A DNA stretch of 33,581 nt, taken from positions 1 through 33,581 of the forward strand of contig JAGGAC010000039.1 in assembly GCA_017889635.1 (NCBI GenBank), given 5' to 3'. Position numbers and translations under genes: made by a program. Each line of letters opens with the position of its first letter. The stretch's first letter is position 1. This document shows, in pieces, positions 7,836 to 14,051 of this stretch. This DNA is from Bacillota bacterium (GTDB lineage Bacteria > Bacillota > Negativicutes > Sporomusales > CTSoil-080). The notes below the pieces were generated by a model that saw only the letters and a list, made by a program, of their open reading frames with translations, did not search any database and was not told the origin of the DNA.

Positions 7836-8414
7836 GTGGCATATCTTTGGCCGAAGGAAGTATTATTGGCGTTGGAAACAGGGGAACTCCCGCCAATAGA
7901 AGCCATTAAATTATTGCGCGAGATGGATAATTGCCAGTCAACGACTTATTATCCTGAAACTAACGATTACCATCAGCGGATAGAGGGAGCTATTCGGGAA
8001 CTCGATGGTTTGGTTGGCTTAGCAGAAGTAAAAAAACTTGTCCGTGAAATTTATGCATTTGTACAAATTCAAAAATACCGTCAAAAAGAGAAATTGCTTA
8101 CCGAACCATTGGTATTGCACATGGTTTTTAAAGGCAATCCAGGTACTGGTAAAACCACGGTTGCTCGCATTATTGGCCGAATTTTTCGCGAAATGGGAGT
8201 TCTTAGTCGCGGTCATCTTATCGAAGTGGAACGAGCAGATATGGTGGGAGAGTATATTGGCCATACTGCACTAAAAACAAGAGAGCAATTAAAAAAAGCT
8301 TATGGTGGAATATTGTTCATTGACGAAGCCTATTCCTTAGCCCGCGGCGGAGAAAAGGATTTCGGAAAAGAAGCTATTGATTGCATGGTGAAACTCTCGA
8401 AACAATTACCTTAA
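7836..8414 (+). CDS. spoVK: SpoVK, 5' segment (interrupted AAA+ ATPase)
   Basis: N-terminal 184 codons of stage V sporulation protein K (CbxX/CfxQ AAA+ family), then eight codons read from the inserted element to a TAA. GTG 7836 has GATGAGGTGA upstream. Walker A GNPGTGKT is at residues 100-107 and Walker B ILFIDEA at about 159-165. Sensor 1, the arginine finger and sensor 2 are all missing; they are encoded 5.2 kb away at 13650-14051. Family continuity breaks exactly after Val185-Lys186 (GTGAAA, 8388-8393). Alone this segment should be an inactive ATPase. Synteny with hfq upstream and hflX downstream supports the name. Confidence 0.93.
8376..8405. other. attL: left junction of the spoVK intervening element
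   Basis: The host reading frame runs to GTGAAA at 8388-8393; immediately after comes CTCTC-G-AAACAA (8394-8405), which is one arm of an inverted repeat whose partner is at the right junction. The six-base GTGAAA is the only sequence shared by the two junctions, so the crossover falls inside it. Exact half-site limits are inferred. Confidence 0.82.
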
Positions 8415-8464
8415 TATGTTTTAGTGATACTGCTTATTTTGTGGAAGGTAACTTTAGGTGTTGA

Positions 8465-8512
8465 TATAAAAAAATGAGATACGAACTTTGTTCGCATCTC
8501 ATTTTTTTATAT
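8465..8512. terminator. Bidirectional terminator at the left end of the element
   Basis: Long inverted repeat: AAAATGAGAT-a-CGAAC pairs with GTTCG-c-ATCTCATTTT, with A-run on one side and T-run on the other. It ends the minus-strand exonuclease operon, and would also stop transcription entering from the spoVK promoter while the element is in place. Confidence 0.88.
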
Positions 8513-8516
8513 AGGT

Positions 8517-9377
8517 TCACTCTTTATTACCACAAAACAGACGATACATATGCTTACAGGGAAGTTTGCGCCGTGTAAAATCATGGCATGTACAACTGTT
8601 CAGCGTCACAGTATAACCATTGATAACAGCTGCTTGAGTAGCAGGGTCAAATTTTGCCACCGTTAGTTCTTTTGAGCGCTCTAAGCGGCTTTGCTGCTGT
8701 AGTTGGCTGTGAATAGCGATGTTCCAGTCGCCGAAGCTGGTAAAGTCAACTGCTGGTGGTATTGTGGCAATTGGCGTATGGCCGCCTGGAAAGACTTGGC
8801 CAAAGGTAATACACAGCTTGGTGTTAAGTTGGTCAAAACTATCTACATTATAGTGATTGAGCGCCTGGAGAGCAATTTGCGCGCAAGTACAGGCATCTTC
8901 ACCGGCATTATGGTGATTGAAGGTTATACCGTGATGCTCAGCCAGAGCAGCTAAATTATAACGTCTCAAGGTTGGCCAGGTTTTCCTAGCTATGCGAAGT
9001 GTGCACGAATAGTTAAGGTTAGGGTGGGGCAACCGATATCGGTCAAGAGTGCCTGTCAAGACTTTAATATCAAATTCGGCGTTATGAGCAATAACAGGGC
9101 AACCAACCAAAAATTTTTTTATCATCGGCCATAAGTCCGCGAAACTAGGCTGATGTTCAACATCTTCTGGTCGTATGCCATGAATTTTTATAAACTCCGG
9201 ATCAAAATATAGTCTGGGTGGACAAATCAACCAAGCCGGATTAGCCACAACACTGCCGTCTTTGACAAACGCTAAGCCAATGGAACACGCGCTGTCCTGA
9301 TCGCGATTGGCTGTTTCAAAGTCAAGAGCTATGAAATCTGCGTCTGAAGGCAATCTAGTCATATCTTTGTTTGGCAT
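8517..9377 (-). CDS. DnaQ-type 3'-5' exonuclease with C-terminal SWIM-like zinc finger
   Basis: 286 residues. The N-terminal two thirds is a DEDDh exonuclease: Exo I is DFET (Asp19, Glu21), Exo II is HNAEFD, Exo III is HHNAGEDA. This resembles PolIII epsilon-like exonucleases that act on single-stranded DNA ends. The last 30 residues hold CTC...PCKH, a CxC...CxH metal site like SWIM fingers, which usually bind DNA or protein. It is the last gene of a minus-strand trio with the recombinase and a secreted protein, 22 bp after the latter. No strong ribosome binding site is seen before ATG 9377. Role in the element is unknown; processing of DNA ends or a stray cargo gene are both possible. Confidence 0.82.
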   Translation of the reverse strand: MPNKDMTRLPSDADFIALDFETANRDQDSACSIGLAFVKDGSVVANPAWLICPPRLYFDPEFIKIHGIRPEDVEHQPSFADLWPMIKKFLVGCPVIAHNAEFDIKVLTGTLDRYRLPHPNLNYSCTLRIARKTWPTLRRYNLAALAEHHGITFNHHNAGEDACTCAQIALQALNHYNVDSFDQLNTKLCITFGQVFPGGHTPIATIPPAVDFTSFGDWNIAIHSQLQQQSRLERSKELTVAKFDPATQAAVINGYTVTLNSCTCHDFTRRKLPCKHMYRLFCGNKE

Positions 9378-9399
9378 ATTTATTTTTCACTACCAATCA

Positions 9400-10173
9400 T
9401 TAATTTCGCCATGTGGCAAGATTAGTTGTGCCGTATTTTTCTTTAGCCTTTTCCTTAAGCTGCTCAACAAATTGTTTCGGATCAACACCATTGTCAGGTA
9501 ACAAATAGTTGCCTGTCGTAACAAATTTCCATTGGCCATCGACCTTAGCTATTGTGAATTTCATGAGGGCATAATTGAGGTTGCCTGAAATAGACATACC
9601 GTTCACACGCTCACGACTGTAAAGACAGAAGCCGGAGATCTTTGAGTTATCGGTAAATGGACCTGAAGGAAGAGTTGTTTCCATGTAGTTAAGTGTAAAC
9701 CTGGCACTATTACCGCCAATCCAGGCTTTAAAGCGTTCTGCTGTTATATTTTTGGCTGCCACATCAATTTGTTGCAGCTTGGCTAGATCTCCGGTATTAA
9801 ACGCATCCATGCGCAATAGCAGCAGACGAATAGCTTGGCGGTCTTCGGGACTGACATATTGGGAAGCCAGAGATATACTGACAACATCAAGCGCTTTTCC
9901 ATACATGTTAGGACCAAATAAGTCTTCCCGCAAATTTCCTTCTACTATAACTTCAAGGTCATCTTTTTGAAATTTTAAGGGCAGTCTTTTGGTAGGATGA
10001 AAGCGCCGTTCATCATCACTTAATAGTCCGTAGGTATCTAGAGAGGTTAGATGTTTAACCTTTCCTTTAAACCTTACAATCTGATTTTCGGCCGCAAATG
10101 CATTGCAAGTAATGATGCTCAGCAAAAGACACAGTACCAAACTGCTAATCAATTTAATCATTGATGTTTTCAT
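9400..10173 (-). CDS. Secreted or periplasmic protein of unknown function
   Basis: 257 residues that I do not recognise. Residues 1-28 form a clear signal peptide (hydrophobic stretch around residues 8-24, likely cleavage after AFA near residue 27). The mature part has an OB/SH3-like beta-rich start and a second half (about residues 105-240) with alternating hydrophobic strands ending near DGQWKFVTTGNYLL, reminiscent of NTF2/SnoaL-like folds; this is only a pattern impression. A strong GGAGGT precedes ATG 10173. It begins 19 bp after the recombinase stop, so it is read from the same message, which is odd for an exported protein. Confidence 0.72.
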   Translation of the reverse strand: MKTSMIKLISSLVLCLLLSIITCNAFAAENQIVRFKGKVKHLTSLDTYGLLSDDERRFHPTKRLPLKFQKDDLEVIVEGNLREDLFGPNMYGKALDVVSISLASQYVSPEDRQAIRLLLLRMDAFNTGDLAKLQQIDVAAKNITAERFKAWIGGNSARFTLNYMETTLPSGPFTDNSKISGFCLYSRERVNGMSISGNLNYALMKFTIAKVDGQWKFVTTGNYLLPDNGVDPKQFVEQLKEKAKEKYGTTNLATWRN

Positions 10174-10192
10174 TGACTTACCTCCACTTGTA

Positions 10193-11725
10193 TTAGGTAA
10201 ATTTTAGTTCAACCTCAATTTCCGGTCGGCTGGCTTTGGCTTTTGTTGTATCTGTTCGCTCCGCGATTACTTTCTTCAATACCTGATGAACAGCAGCTCT
10301 CTTAGCCTCATATGAATGGTCGCCAAGAGCAAAATGTTTGGTAACAGCTGTAATAATCTCTTTTTGCGACAAGTTAGGAGAGAAGATTTCCATTTCTTCG
10401 CGTATTTTAGCTAGGTTCCGCCCGACATCATTTATTCTATCGCTAATTTCTTTTAGTTGCCTTTCAGCCTCATCCTCGGCAATCATTTGTTGCCGGTACC
10501 AACGCAAAACCATTTCTCGCTGCTTGACCAATCTGACTTCATTATCCTGCAGCCTTTCTATTGCGGTAATAAAATTTTTCGTATTGGCAGGGTGAGGGCG
10601 ATTTGACAAATATTGTTTTATCAACCGAGGATTTTTACTTAACTGATAAAGATGTTCATAGACGGTCTGATCAAGCAGCTCACAAGGAATGCGCCGAGCA
10701 CGGCAACGTTCTTTTTCTGTGTATATATAGGAGTTGCTTCGCTGACTCATGCAGACATAATAACTTTTAGGATCAGTAGCCTTACCGGCGTAGGTAATAG
10801 TCATCTTCCGACCGCATTGGGCACAATATACTAAACCACTTAGCAGTTGTTCACGTTTAAGGTTGCGTTTCGCAAGGGACTTATTGGCCTTTAATTGGCT
10901 TTGGGCAGCCTGCCAAACCTCAGTATCAACAATAGCCGGAACAGGTATGTCAATCCATTCTGATTCAGGCCGAAGAGTTCTAATTCTTTTGTTCAAGCTG
11001 ACCTTTTGATAACGGTAACGCATTGCCACATGGGTTCCACGATAAATAGGATTGGTCAAAAGACGATAAACAGCTGAAACAATCCAAGGCTTCTTCAATC
11101 TGGGCGAGGGAACGCCAATTTCATTCAACCGCCTTGCAATAGTTGCGGTACCGATTTTTTCCTCGGTAAGCCAGGTATACATTTGTTGGACAATTTGAGC
11201 TTCTGACTCATTTATTTCATAATTACTTATTTCTTTGTTGTATGTATACCCAAACGGTTTAGCGTCAGCGATTATTTTACCTTGGGCAGCTTTGCCGCGT
11301 TTGCCGCGCATAGAACGTTCTTTAATCTTTTCTTTTTCATAAGCAGAAACTGCGCCTCTGATAGAATAAAACAGTTTGCCTTCCGGGGATTGCTCGAAGG
11401 ACACTGATACAAAAAGAAGCTGGGCGCCAGCTTGTTCGATTTCATCGGTTATAATCAGTTGGTGGGCTAAATTACGGGCTAATCGGTCGGGGTCATAAAC
11501 AATTACAGCGCTAAGATTATTGTTGGCCAACATTTTTCTAAGCTGGGTGAGGGCTGGACGATCAATAAATTCGCCACTATAACCATCGTCAACAAATTCT
11601 TCAATTTTTTTTGCTCCCAGCATAGCGGCTCTTTTTCGGCAAGCATCAAGCTGTGTTGCCAAAGAATAGCCTGTTTCAGCCTGTTCCACAGTGCTTACGC
11701 GAGCATAAACGGCAACTATATTCAT
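10193..11725 (-). CDS. Large serine recombinase (SpoIVCA/skin recombinase type)
   Basis: 510 residues from ATG 11725, chosen because GGGAGG lies six bases upstream; the longer frame to 11749 lacks a site. Residues 3-150 form the resolvase catalytic domain: YARVS with nucleophile Ser11, then YDPDRLARN, and EKEKIKERSMRGKRGKAAQG leading into the recombinase domain (about 155-270). A zinc ribbon follows with CAQC and later cysteines, then a Leu/Glu-rich coiled coil near 390-450 that in this family controls directionality. Size and layout match SpoIVCA. It is the obvious enzyme for insertion and excision of the element. First gene of a three-gene minus-strand unit; I found no convincing promoter in the 110 bp upstream. 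Confidence 0.95.
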   Translation of the reverse strand: MNIVAVYARVSTVEQAETGYSLATQLDACRKRAAMLGAKKIEEFVDDGYSGEFIDRPALTQLRKMLANNNLSAVIVYDPDRLARNLAHQLIITDEIEQAGAQLLFVSVSFEQSPEGKLFYSIRGAVSAYEKEKIKERSMRGKRGKAAQGKIIADAKPFGYTYNKEISNYEINESEAQIVQQMYTWLTEEKIGTATIARRLNEIGVPSPRLKKPWIVSAVYRLLTNPIYRGTHVAMRYRYQKVSLNKRIRTLRPESEWIDIPVPAIVDTEVWQAAQSQLKANKSLAKRNLKREQLLSGLVYCAQCGRKMTITYAGKATDPKSYYVCMSQRSNSYIYTEKERCRARRIPCELLDQTVYEHLYQLSKNPRLIKQYLSNRPHPANTKNFITAIERLQDNEVRLVKQREMVLRWYRQQMIAEDEAERQLKEISDRINDVGRNLAKIREEMEIFSPNLSQKEIITAVTKHFALGDHSYEAKRAAVHQVLKKVIAERTDTTKAKASRPEIEVELKFT

Positions 11726-11859
11726 TATGATCCTCCCAGAATTAAGCATGGCTTAAATGCAATAATTCCATAAAAAGTACTTAGTTTCCTGCATTTTTTT
11801 TAGATCCGCTACCCTAATGTACAACCACTGGCGCATAGAATTATTTAGAGGTGGTGGTT

Positions 11860-12027
11860 GTGGCAGAAAAACAGCGTTTTAATATAAATAAAGCGCCTCC
11901 GGTTGTCAGAATCATTCATGGCAGTGAATGGGAAGATGAACGCCACAGTTTGTTATTTGTCAAACCTTTAATTGAAAGGATTTTAGTACAGCTGCTCCAG
12001 TTACGTCATGATAAACCAGAAGCCTGA
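11860..12027 (+). CDS. Small 55-residue protein, candidate recombination directionality factor
   Basis: Short ORF starting at GTG 11860 with AGAGGTGG five bases upstream (11847-11854), ending at TGA 12025-12027. The product begins MAEKQRFNINKAPP and ends DKPEA; it is mixed-charge with an amphipathic stretch (FVKPLIERILVQLLQL) that could be a helix. No known domain recognised. It is divergent from the recombinase, 134 bp away, and is followed by the sigma-A promoter of the riboswitch unit. Small proteins next to large serine recombinases often act as directionality factors (B. subtilis SprB is of similar size), so that is the leading guess. It could also be a chance ORF, though RBS and codon use look real. 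Confidence 0.6.
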   Translation: MAEKQRFNINKAPPVVRIIHGSEWEDERHSLLFVKPLIERILVQLLQLRHDKPEA

Positions 12028-12047
12028 TTTAAAGGTTGCAAGAGTGT

Positions 12048-12076
12048 TTGACAACATTTAATCTAATTGTTATAAT
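12048..12076 (+). promoter_or_regulatory. Consensus sigma-A promoter of the ZTP riboswitch/transporter unit
   Basis: Perfect TTGACA (12048-12053), 17-bp spacer, perfect TATAAT (12071-12076). Transcription should start near 12083, just before the first riboswitch. This is a vegetative promoter inside an element interrupting a sporulation gene. Confidence 0.9.
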
Positions 12077-12094
12077 TACACGTAGTTAAATAAC

Positions 12095-12168
12095 GATGAT
12101 ACGGAACTGGCGGATAAGTGGAATTAACCACATGAACCATATCATCATTGCAGTCGACCGCCTGGGCA
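12095..12168 (+). promoter_or_regulatory. ZTP (pfl motif) riboswitch, first copy
   Basis: P1 formed by GATGATACGG (12095-12104) and CCATATCATC with one C-A mismatch. Between them are the conserved ACTGGCGG and a GTGG-loop-CCAC hairpin; after the linker comes CCGCCTGGGCA (12158-12168), whose CCGCC can pair with GGCGG (12109-12113) as the pseudoknot. This is the hallmark of the ZTP/ZMP aptamer, which senses shortage of 10-formyl-tetrahydrofolate. The pseudoknot strand is also the 5' arm of the terminator, so ligand binding should turn expression on. Confidence 0.88.
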
Positions 12169-12210
12169 AAGAGAAGATTTGTTCTTTTGTCCAGGCGGTT
12201 TTGTGTTTCT
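12158..12210 (+). terminator. Terminator of the first ZTP riboswitch
   Basis: CCGCCTGGGCAAAGAGAA pairs with TTCTTTTGTCCAGGCGG (12182-12198), followed by a T-rich tract (TTTTGTGTTTCT). Its 5' arm overlaps the riboswitch pseudoknot strand, so aptamer folding and termination exclude each other. Confidence 0.88.
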
Positions 12211-12223
12211 ACAACTAAATAAC

Positions 12224-12297
12224 GATGATACGGAACTGGCGGATAAGTGGAATTAACCACATGAACCGTATCATTATTACAGTCGACCGCCTGGGCA
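12224..12297 (+). promoter_or_regulatory. ZTP (pfl motif) riboswitch, second copy
   Basis: Same architecture as the first copy shifted by 129 bp. Here P1 is perfect (TGATACGG with CCGTATCA). The core ACTGGCGG, the GTGG/CCAC hairpin and CCGCCTGGGCA are unchanged. RNA polymerase must pass both switches to reach the transporter gene, so the pair should give tighter shut-off and a steeper response than one. Confidence 0.88.
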
Positions 12298-12339
12298 AAG
12301 AGAAGATTTGTTCTTTTGTCCAGGCGGTTTTGTGTTTCT
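12287..12339 (+). terminator. Terminator of the second ZTP riboswitch
   Basis: Identical hairpin to that of the first switch: 5' arm starts at 12287, 3' arm ends at 12327, then TTTTGTGTTTCT. It lies 38 bp before the transporter start codon. Confidence 0.88.
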
Positions 12340-12377
12340 AATAGGTAGAAAAATATCGTAAGGAGATGTTTTTAGCA

Positions 12378-13598
12378 ATGAAAAATCGTTGGCTTATTGC
12401 TTTATCGGCGGTTGGAATTCATGTTTGTATTGGAAGTGTATATGCATGGAGCGTGTTAACGAAACCCATAATGAAAGAATTAGGGGTGGGACTAAAAGAA
12501 ACACAATGGACTTTTTCACTTGCAATTTTATTTTTAGGACTATCCGCGGCATTCTTGGGAAGCTATGTTGAAAAACTTGGTCCTAAAAAATCAGGACTAA
12601 TCTCCGCGGCATTTTTCTCTATTGGCTTGTTTGGAACAGGCGTAGCTGTGTACTTAAAAACATTGCCGCTATTATACTTATTTTACGGCATAATCGGCGG
12701 AATCGGACTTGGTATCGGCTATATTACACCAGTATCAACTTTGGTAAAGTGGTTTCCTGAAAAACGCGGGTTTGCTACAGGTATAGCTATCATGGGGTTT
12801 GGATTTGCCAGTTTTATAGCCGGACCGATTATTCAGACGCTTATCGAAAAATATAGTCTGATAGCTACTTTTGAAATTCTTGGGATTATCTATCTTTTAA
12901 TTATGACACCGTCAGCATTATACCTTGAACAGCCGCCAGAAACCTATAATGTTGTAACAAACTTAAGTATAACGCCTGTGACCGAAAGGTATCAAATGAC
13001 CTCACTTGAAGCCCTGAAGACATGGCAATTCTACGCTCTATGGTGGATGCTTTTCACCAATATCACCTGTGGCATTGGTTTATTAAGTGTAGTGTCACCA
13101 TTTGCTCAGGAAGTTATAAAGATGTCTCCAATTGCTGCTGCAACAATGGTTGGCATGGTTGGTCTATTAAACGGCTTTGGACGAATAATTTGGGCGTCGG
13201 TATCTGACTATATCGGCCGGGCAAATACTTATCTTGCTTTTTTCCTTATCCAGATTATTGCCTTCTTTTTGCTATCCCATACTACAGATAGCATTTCGTT
13301 TCAACTATTTGTCTATTTAATTATTTCGTGCTATGGCGGCGGTTTTGCCACAATTCCCGCTTTTTTAAGTGATCTTTTTGGAACGAAGGAATTAAGCGCA
13401 ATTCATGGCAAAATTCTTAGTGCTTGGGCGGCTGCAGGGGTTGTCGGTCCATTTCTGGTGGCGTGGGTTAAGGAGACGACAAACAGTTACAATGATATGT
13501 TATTGGTTTTCTCATACTGTTTTATTGTTACTTTGATAGTTGCGACCGTTGTCAAGTTTAAACAATCTCCTACTGTTAATAGCGAACAATCAGCGTAA
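12378..13598 (+). CDS. OFA-family MFS transporter (oxalate/formate antiporter-like)
   Basis: 406 residues with about 12 membrane helices. The start SVYAWSVLTKPI and the loop KWFPEKRGFATGIAIMGFG are typical of the OFA family of the major facilitator superfamily, whose known members exchange oxalate/formate or move other monocarboxylates. I take ATG 12378 (AAGGAG at 12360-12365); ATG 12366 overlaps that site. It is the last gene in the element, read toward the right junction, and its message carries two ZTP riboswitches. Formate is the one-carbon donor for 10-formyl-THF, so a formate or related carboxylate substrate would fit the regulator; the actual substrate cannot be read from the sequence. 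No terminator is seen between its stop and the 3' half of spoVK. Confidence 0.88.
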   Translation: MKNRWLIALSAVGIHVCIGSVYAWSVLTKPIMKELGVGLKETQWTFSLAILFLGLSAAFLGSYVEKLGPKKSGLISAAFFSIGLFGTGVAVYLKTLPLLYLFYGIIGGIGLGIGYITPVSTLVKWFPEKRGFATGIAIMGFGFASFIAGPIIQTLIEKYSLIATFEILGIIYLLIMTPSALYLEQPPETYNVVTNLSITPVTERYQMTSLEALKTWQFYALWWMLFTNITCGIGLLSVVSPFAQEVIKMSPIAAATMVGMVGLLNGFGRIIWASVSDYIGRANTYLAFFLIQIIAFFLLSHTTDSISFQLFVYLIISCYGGGFATIPAFLSDLFGTKELSAIHGKILSAWAAAGVVGPFLVAWVKETTNSYNDMLLVFSYCFIVTLIVATVVKFKQSPTVNSEQSA

Positions 13599-13630
13599 AA
13601 TATCTTAGAACTCAAAATAAAGTTTATAAG

Positions 13631-13665
13631 TTGTTTAAGAGAGTGTATAGTGAAAGCGATGGAAG
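13631..13665. other. attR: right junction of the spoVK intervening element
   Basis: TTGTTT-AA-GAGAG (13631-13643) lies just left of the shared GTGAAA (13650-13655); host spoVK resumes with GCGATGGAAG. Joined to the left junction this arm and CTCTC-G-AAACAA form an imperfect palindrome around the core, the expected shape of a serine-recombinase attP. Confidence 0.82.
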
Positions 13666-14051
13666 ACCATAAAGATGATCTGATATTGATTTTAGCTGGT
13701 TACCATAAAGAAATGGATAATTTTTTACAGACTAACCCAGGTTTAAGGTCGCGCTTTCCTATACATATCGAATTCCAGGATTATAGCCATAATGAACTTA
13801 TTGAAATAGCTGATCAAATGTGTACTAATCGTCAATACCAACTATCACCTCAGGCAAGGCTGGCTCTCCTATGTCGACTAAATGAACCGATAATTAGGGC
13901 CAATTCAAACTTTGGCAACGCCAGAACAGTGCGCAATCTTATCGAAAAGGCTTTTCGACTACAAGCCGTGCGTTTAGTCAAAAAAAACACGCTATCCAAA
14001 CAAGACTTAATGCTCCTTGAACCTTCAGATTTACCAGAGGTGGAGACATGA
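13650..14051 (+). CDS. spoVK: SpoVK, 3' segment (C-terminal half of AAA+ ATPase)
   Basis: 133 codons that complete the AAA+ domain begun at 7836-8387. It contains the sensor 1 strand LILILAGY, the arginine-finger region NPGLRSRFP and sensor 2 GNARTVRNLIEKA, i.e. exactly what the 5' segment lacks. GTG 13650 is the in-frame Val of the joined gene; the upstream bases AAGAGAG are a poor ribosome binding site, so separate translation is doubtful. The frame has no stops or frameshifts, so it is not decaying. The stop overlaps the next gene (ATG 14048), tying it to the GTPase operon. Confidence 0.93.
   Translation: MKAMEDHKDDLILILAGYHKEMDNFLQTNPGLRSRFPIHIEFQDYSHNELIEIADQMCTNRQYQLSPQARLALLCRLNEPIIRANSNFGNARTVRNLIEKAFRLQAVRLVKKNTLSKQDLMLLEPSDLPEVET

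Follow-up and report, generated by a model that had tools for sequence, protein, structure and literature searches.

The sporulation gene spoVK of a Negativicutes bacterium is interrupted by a 5,262-bp skin-like element, and very probably the element is removed by its own recombinase acting with a small accessory factor. This reaction would join attL to attR at a GT dinucleotide and would most likely take place in the sporulating mother cell. In the window (the whole 33,581-nt stretch of DNA analysed), the gene order is mutS, mutL, miaA, hfq, spoVK, a GTPase gene, hflX and lexA (names assigned by reading translations). spoVK lies there in two pieces on the plus strand. The 5' half (7836-8389, aligned to intact spoVK) starts at the GTG at 7836, carries Walker A and B and runs to the GT at 8388-8389; the 3' half (13650-14051) carries sensor 1, the arginine finger and the AAA lid (PF17866, AAA_lid_6). 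The two crossover codons, at 8388 and 13650, are 5,262 bp apart. Against the 261-position spore_V_K model of NCBIfam (TIGR02881), the 5' half covers positions 2-135 and the 3' half positions 135-261, thus no part of spoVK has been lost or duplicated. Joined, the halves form a 317-residue frame with no stop, in agreement with a preliminary description of this DNA, which had reported an element of this size between two intact halves whose exact joining restores the frame. That description had also raised the possibility of a second intact spoVK in the genome; a whole-genome search found none (next match, E=9e-4). As there is no other spoVK and spoIVA is intact, the genome has not plainly lost sporulation. 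A search of the window's own assembly for an empty site returned the integrated form only, with no excised chromosome or circle.

The same split recurs among relatives of the organism. spoVK is in two parts in 18 of 60 relatives (the window's genome included), broken at the same valine codon with very different spacing between the parts; the other spoVK genes in this set are single full-length frames, the uninterrupted form that the preliminary description had proposed seeking in related genomes. A split at the same codon in 17 further genomes is far beyond chance. Across the class, a 250-genome sample (which overlaps the 60 relatives, with counts taken from a table) held 23 two-part spoVK genes versus 22 uninterrupted short ones, and 2 more genomes with one spoVK half only. 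The element is thus no rare strain-level accident: of the genomes of the class sampled that carry spoVK, about half have it. In the rest of the phylum the gene is almost always a single frame. Named carriers include Propionispora sp. 2/2-37 together with Pelosinus fermentans JBW45, P. propionicus DSM 13327 and Sporomusa acidovorans Mol, the last three of which make the spoVK element directly testable. One further two-part spoVK, in genome G003, was rejected as a case of the same split because it is an overlapping frameshift.

The element carries its own site-specific recombinase, whose presence tracks the spoVK split in the 60 genomes. The large serine recombinase of the window (510 aa, 10193-11725, minus strand), noted in the preliminary description and proposed here as the excisionase, is read from the ATG at 11725, has Resolvase, Recombinase and zinc-ribbon domains (PF00239, PF07508, PF13408; Pfam, all above cut-off) and matches an integrase family, PHROG 95. 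An orthologue (over 500 bits to the window's recombinase; about 47-100% identical) occurs in all 18 genomes with a split spoVK and in no other genome of the 60. It was absent from every genome of that set with an intact spoVK, other serine recombinases scoring at most 400 bits, and occurred nowhere else in a 199-genome sample of the phylum. In a tree in which several outgroup branches are long, the spoVK-embedded recombinases form a single group apart from the other recombinases included.

We used the ratio of nonsynonymous to synonymous change to examine both halves of the gene, relying on closer pairs among the relatives since distances to the window are saturated at synonymous sites. Median dN/dS between split genes was 0.052 for the 5' half and 0.078 for the 3' half, against 0.069 and 0.089 for the same two halves of intact spoVK. 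Both halves are therefore under strong purifying selection, as in uninterrupted spoVK, with no relaxation, which bears out the preliminary argument that a gene with its frame preserved is still in use. Every element-carrying assembly has spoVK interrupted, as would be expected if a mobile element had disrupted the gene and left it to decay; however, dN/dS is as low as in intact spoVK, the joined frame is open in 20 of 20 elements and the split is shared by whole families. Selection and conservation in practice exclude a dead gene, and we rejected this reading as scarcely credible. Purifying selection on both halves would also be expected if they acted as two separate polypeptides, a split AAA ATPase with no rejoining of the DNA. 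Against this, the short tails that end the 5' half differ between genomes, the 3' half opens with a non-start codon (GTT, GTA or GTC) in 9 of 20 cases, and in-frame candidate starts near the junction have at most 4 of 6 Shine-Dalgarno matches; the association with the recombinase and the intact attP would, in addition, go unexplained. The variable tails and the non-start valine codons make function as two polypeptides unlikely, and we rejected it too, considering it extremely improbable.

To define the attachment sites, 20 elements were cut within the ID[CV][MLI]V motif, at its valine codon, with the two host arms rejoined taken as attB and the two element arms as attP. Comparison of these sites places attL, made of the left arm of spoVK and the left arm of the element, at 8358-8419 of the window (GT at 8388-8389), and attR, made of the right arms of the element and of spoVK, at 13620-13681 (GT at 13650-13651). 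The bases common to attL and attR number from 2 to 9 per element, and GT is the only sequence common to all 20, from which we infer that the crossover point is this GT dinucleotide within the spoVK valine codon. A two-base overlap agrees with the mechanism of serine recombinases. Thus GTGAAA, at which the preliminary description had placed the junction, does overlap locally in the window and is best seen as such, around a GT crossover, rather than as a core shared by the elements.

The attP sites form an imperfect palindrome centred exactly on the GT, with a mean of 12.3 of 20 position pairs complementary over the 20 elements. Shuffling the arms lowers this to 6.8 +/- 0.4 (pooled z about 13), and any other choice of centre gives 5-7. 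The symmetry of attB is slight, at 6.2 versus 5.3 +/- 0.4 when shuffled. The window's attP by itself gives a modest 10 of 20 pairs (p about 0.055), so that the strength of the palindrome evidence lies in the pooled set. In that set the sites have the short shared core (GT) and inverted repeats expected of skin-like elements, and together with the recombinase these GT-centred sites are a candidate for a new integrase system.

Beside the recombinase lies a small open reading frame of 55 aa (11860-12027, plus strand, from a GTG at 11860; the frame is open from 11851). Recombinases of the spoVK group fall into subclades A (which includes the window's), B (Sporomusa and others) and C (Pelosinus), and an ORF of 50-60 residues has been kept beside the recombinase in the first two, divergent from it in clade A, and co-directional with and upstream of it in clade B. 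The clade A and clade B ORFs are homologous as profiles (hhalign, probability 89%, E=2e-6); no equivalent could be established in the Pelosinus clade. The predicted fold of the window's small ORF is of low confidence (pLDDT 65), and its profile gave only chance matches to solved structures (E over 1). By its size and position, which fit the known factors of such elements, this ORF is a candidate recombination directionality factor.

In the favoured reading, the small element-encoded factor would be made in the mother cell and would steer the recombinase towards excision; the recombinase would then recombine attL with attR at the GT within the valine codon, the 5.26-kb element would leave as a circle, and the spoVK halves would be joined in frame. 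The terminal chromosome of the mother cell could lose the element, while that of the forespore would keep it and pass it on. Excision in the mother cell at the time of sporulation is the most likely course, by analogy with known elements, from the expression of spoVK in B. subtilis, where it is a mother-cell gene (PMC517825), and from conserved promoter-like motifs. In that species spoVK and spoIVCA, the recombinase gene of skin, are the two sigma-E genes that depend almost wholly on SpoIIID (PMC517825); C. difficile expresses its recombinase constitutively and places the factor CD1234 under the control of sigma-E and SpoIIID (PMC5025042).

When all promoters were scanned for generic sigma-E sites, no match common to them emerged, and informative patterns came only from alignments made clade by clade. 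Upstream of the operon of small ORF and recombinase in clade B, AGACAACC-N7-8-GCATACGATT is conserved in most members and resembles the core of a SpoIIID site together with a sigma-E -10 element. The window's clade has no clear sigma-E sites; possible -10 elements of the CATA type precede both spoVK and the small ORF, and the recombinase has a conserved upstream AGGAAA...GAA(T/C)T that looks more like sigma-H. We infer from these motifs and analogies that the element may be under developmental control. The lack of a clear mother-cell promoter in the window's own clade would suit excision untied to sporulation, a low-frequency flip-out in all cells with spoVK function as a mere by-product. Such population heterogeneity has been proposed in part for yin of C. 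botulinum, in which mixed populations are seen at all time points (PMC10747680). However, each of our assemblies shows one state, genomes with intact spoVK have no orthologue of the recombinase, the SpoIIID/sigma-E-like motif is conserved in clade B, and mother-cell expression of spoVK in B. subtilis (PMC517825) points the same way. We therefore regard sporulation-independent excision as improbable, and favour excision in the sporulating mother cell.

Within clade A the recombinase and spoVK trees agree, joining the window with L059, then L067, then five members of the L060 group. This agreement is what long vertical inheritance of the element in the window's clade, from the ancestor of two families onwards, would produce. 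In clade B, split and intact spoVK genes are mixed, so losses or regains have happened, and the spoVK tree as a whole requires 9 changes of state. In one relative (G024, contig C4), the spoVK halves, both intact, lie 292 kb apart in opposite orientation (L072 and L073, at 734.6 kb and 442.9 kb). Site-specific recombination there may invert the 292-kb segment and rejoin spoVK; a misassembly is also possible. A broader and tentative proposal, which we entertain without favouring it, sees the element as an ancient developmental DNA switch of the Negativicutes, passed on mostly by vertical descent. The recombinase, the small factor and the att sites would have persisted through divergence at family level as one set of cargo genes gave way to another, so that the host would by now depend on the element for timing; at least one relative (G024) would perhaps rejoin spoVK by inversion of the chromosome and not by excision.

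From left to right the window's element holds, on the minus strand, an exonuclease gene, a gene for a 257-aa protein and the recombinase gene, followed by the 55-aa ORF on the plus strand, a sequence of about 125 bp in duplicate and, again on the plus strand, an MFS transporter gene. The first (8517-9377) encodes a DEDDh 3'-5' exonuclease (RNase_T) with a C-terminal SWIM zinc finger, as assigned from Pfam and ORF clusters; the 257-aa product (9400-10173) has a signal-peptide-like N-terminus and no family match; the transporter (12366-13598) exceeds the cut-off of NF049980, an L-lactate transporter model. By eye, the sequence of about 125 bp occurs twice in tandem at 12085-12340, in the interval that separates the small ORF from the MFS gene, and both copies seem to form a hairpin, ACCGCCTGG...CCAGGCGGT. 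No phage-related gene beyond the recombinase was recognisable in this element with Pfam, NCBIfam or PHROG. The 21 elements compared have no gene but the recombinase in common, and only the eight of clade A share the exonuclease and the 257-aa protein; cargo turns over and is mostly unrelated between spoVK elements, whose sizes range from 2,969 to 23,103 bp. The preliminary remark that 5 kb is very small thus holds for published elements and does not hold for spoVK elements.

The closest parallels are the skin elements in sigK of B. subtilis and C. difficile (skinCd), in which a sporulation gene is likewise split, a large serine recombinase is present and excision restores the frame; skinCd also has a small directionality factor, CD1234, under sigma-E and SpoIIID (PMC5025042). 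The skin-like reading given in the preliminary description is supported on every point examined by sequence: many species have the same target codon, the recombinase accompanies each split spoVK and no other in the 60 genomes, joining the element ends gives an intact palindromic attP, all 20 joined frames are open, both halves are under purifying selection and there is a single spoVK. The spoVK element is, however, far smaller than skin (48 kb in B. subtilis), its target is an AAA ATPase gene and not a sigma factor gene, the window's copy has no recognisable phage structural genes, and its recombinase and small ORF belong to other families. The gin element in gerE of B. cereus ATCC10987 is also a non-phage intervening element with a serine recombinase and extra factor (GirC, GirX) that is developmentally excised, but it is 28.6 kb long, has three recombinases and a 9-bp overlap, and occupies a different gene in the Bacilli (PMC5595907). 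Similarly, vfbin (spoVFB), vrin (spoVR), SP-beta in spsM and yin in yabG are recombinase-bearing elements in mother-cell or spore genes, though neither the genes nor the lineages are those of the spoVK element. The description of yin comes from one strain; spoVK elements, in contrast, occur repeatedly in several families within a class. The XisF element of cyanobacterial fdxN restores its gene by serine-recombinase excision in a terminal cell, though in heterocysts and in nitrogen-fixation genes. The window's recombinase matches the XisF model with E=7e-35 but does not reach the cut-off of that model.

We found no report of an intervening element in spoVK in the open-access literature searched. 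The kind of mechanism is already known from skin and gin; as far as can be told, the target gene, the bacterial class, the small size and the persistence are new. The element extends programmed DNA rearrangement in sporulation to a further gene, spoVK, and to a further class, the diderm spore formers of the Negativicutes. With split and unsplit sister species and elements of 3 to 23 kb, the class also offers many natural replicates for asking why such an element persists, whether as a parasite, a passenger or a useful timer.

Additionally, related recombinases and other arrangements were noticed. In another lineage of the phylum (G358, contig C60, 6032-81686; L106-L110), about 75.6 kb of DNA interrupts spoVK near the same VKAM[ED] motif. 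This DNA contains genes for polysaccharide synthesis, IS genes and conjugation-like genes, and another type of serine recombinase (28% identical) adjoins the 3' half; this is apparently an independent insertion at the same place. An IMG/VR contig with phage-type genes (IMGVR_UViG_3300021518_000003, L094) encodes an integrase 48% identical to the spoVK recombinase, which hints at a phage ancestry for the latter. The part of this contig examined has no spoVK and, by a position matrix of clade B attP, no similar attP, so its integrase probably uses another target. A 39%-identical recombinase (L053:7995-10143) abuts the C-terminal part of a protein resembling an intact 308-aa SH3-bearing protein (L084:6186-7112), and is possibly another case of an interrupted gene. 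The window's own genome has, at about 171 kb of contig C68 (G000; L084), a prophage-like region with a recombinase 43% identical to that of spoVK, just after a 280-aa kinase-like gene.
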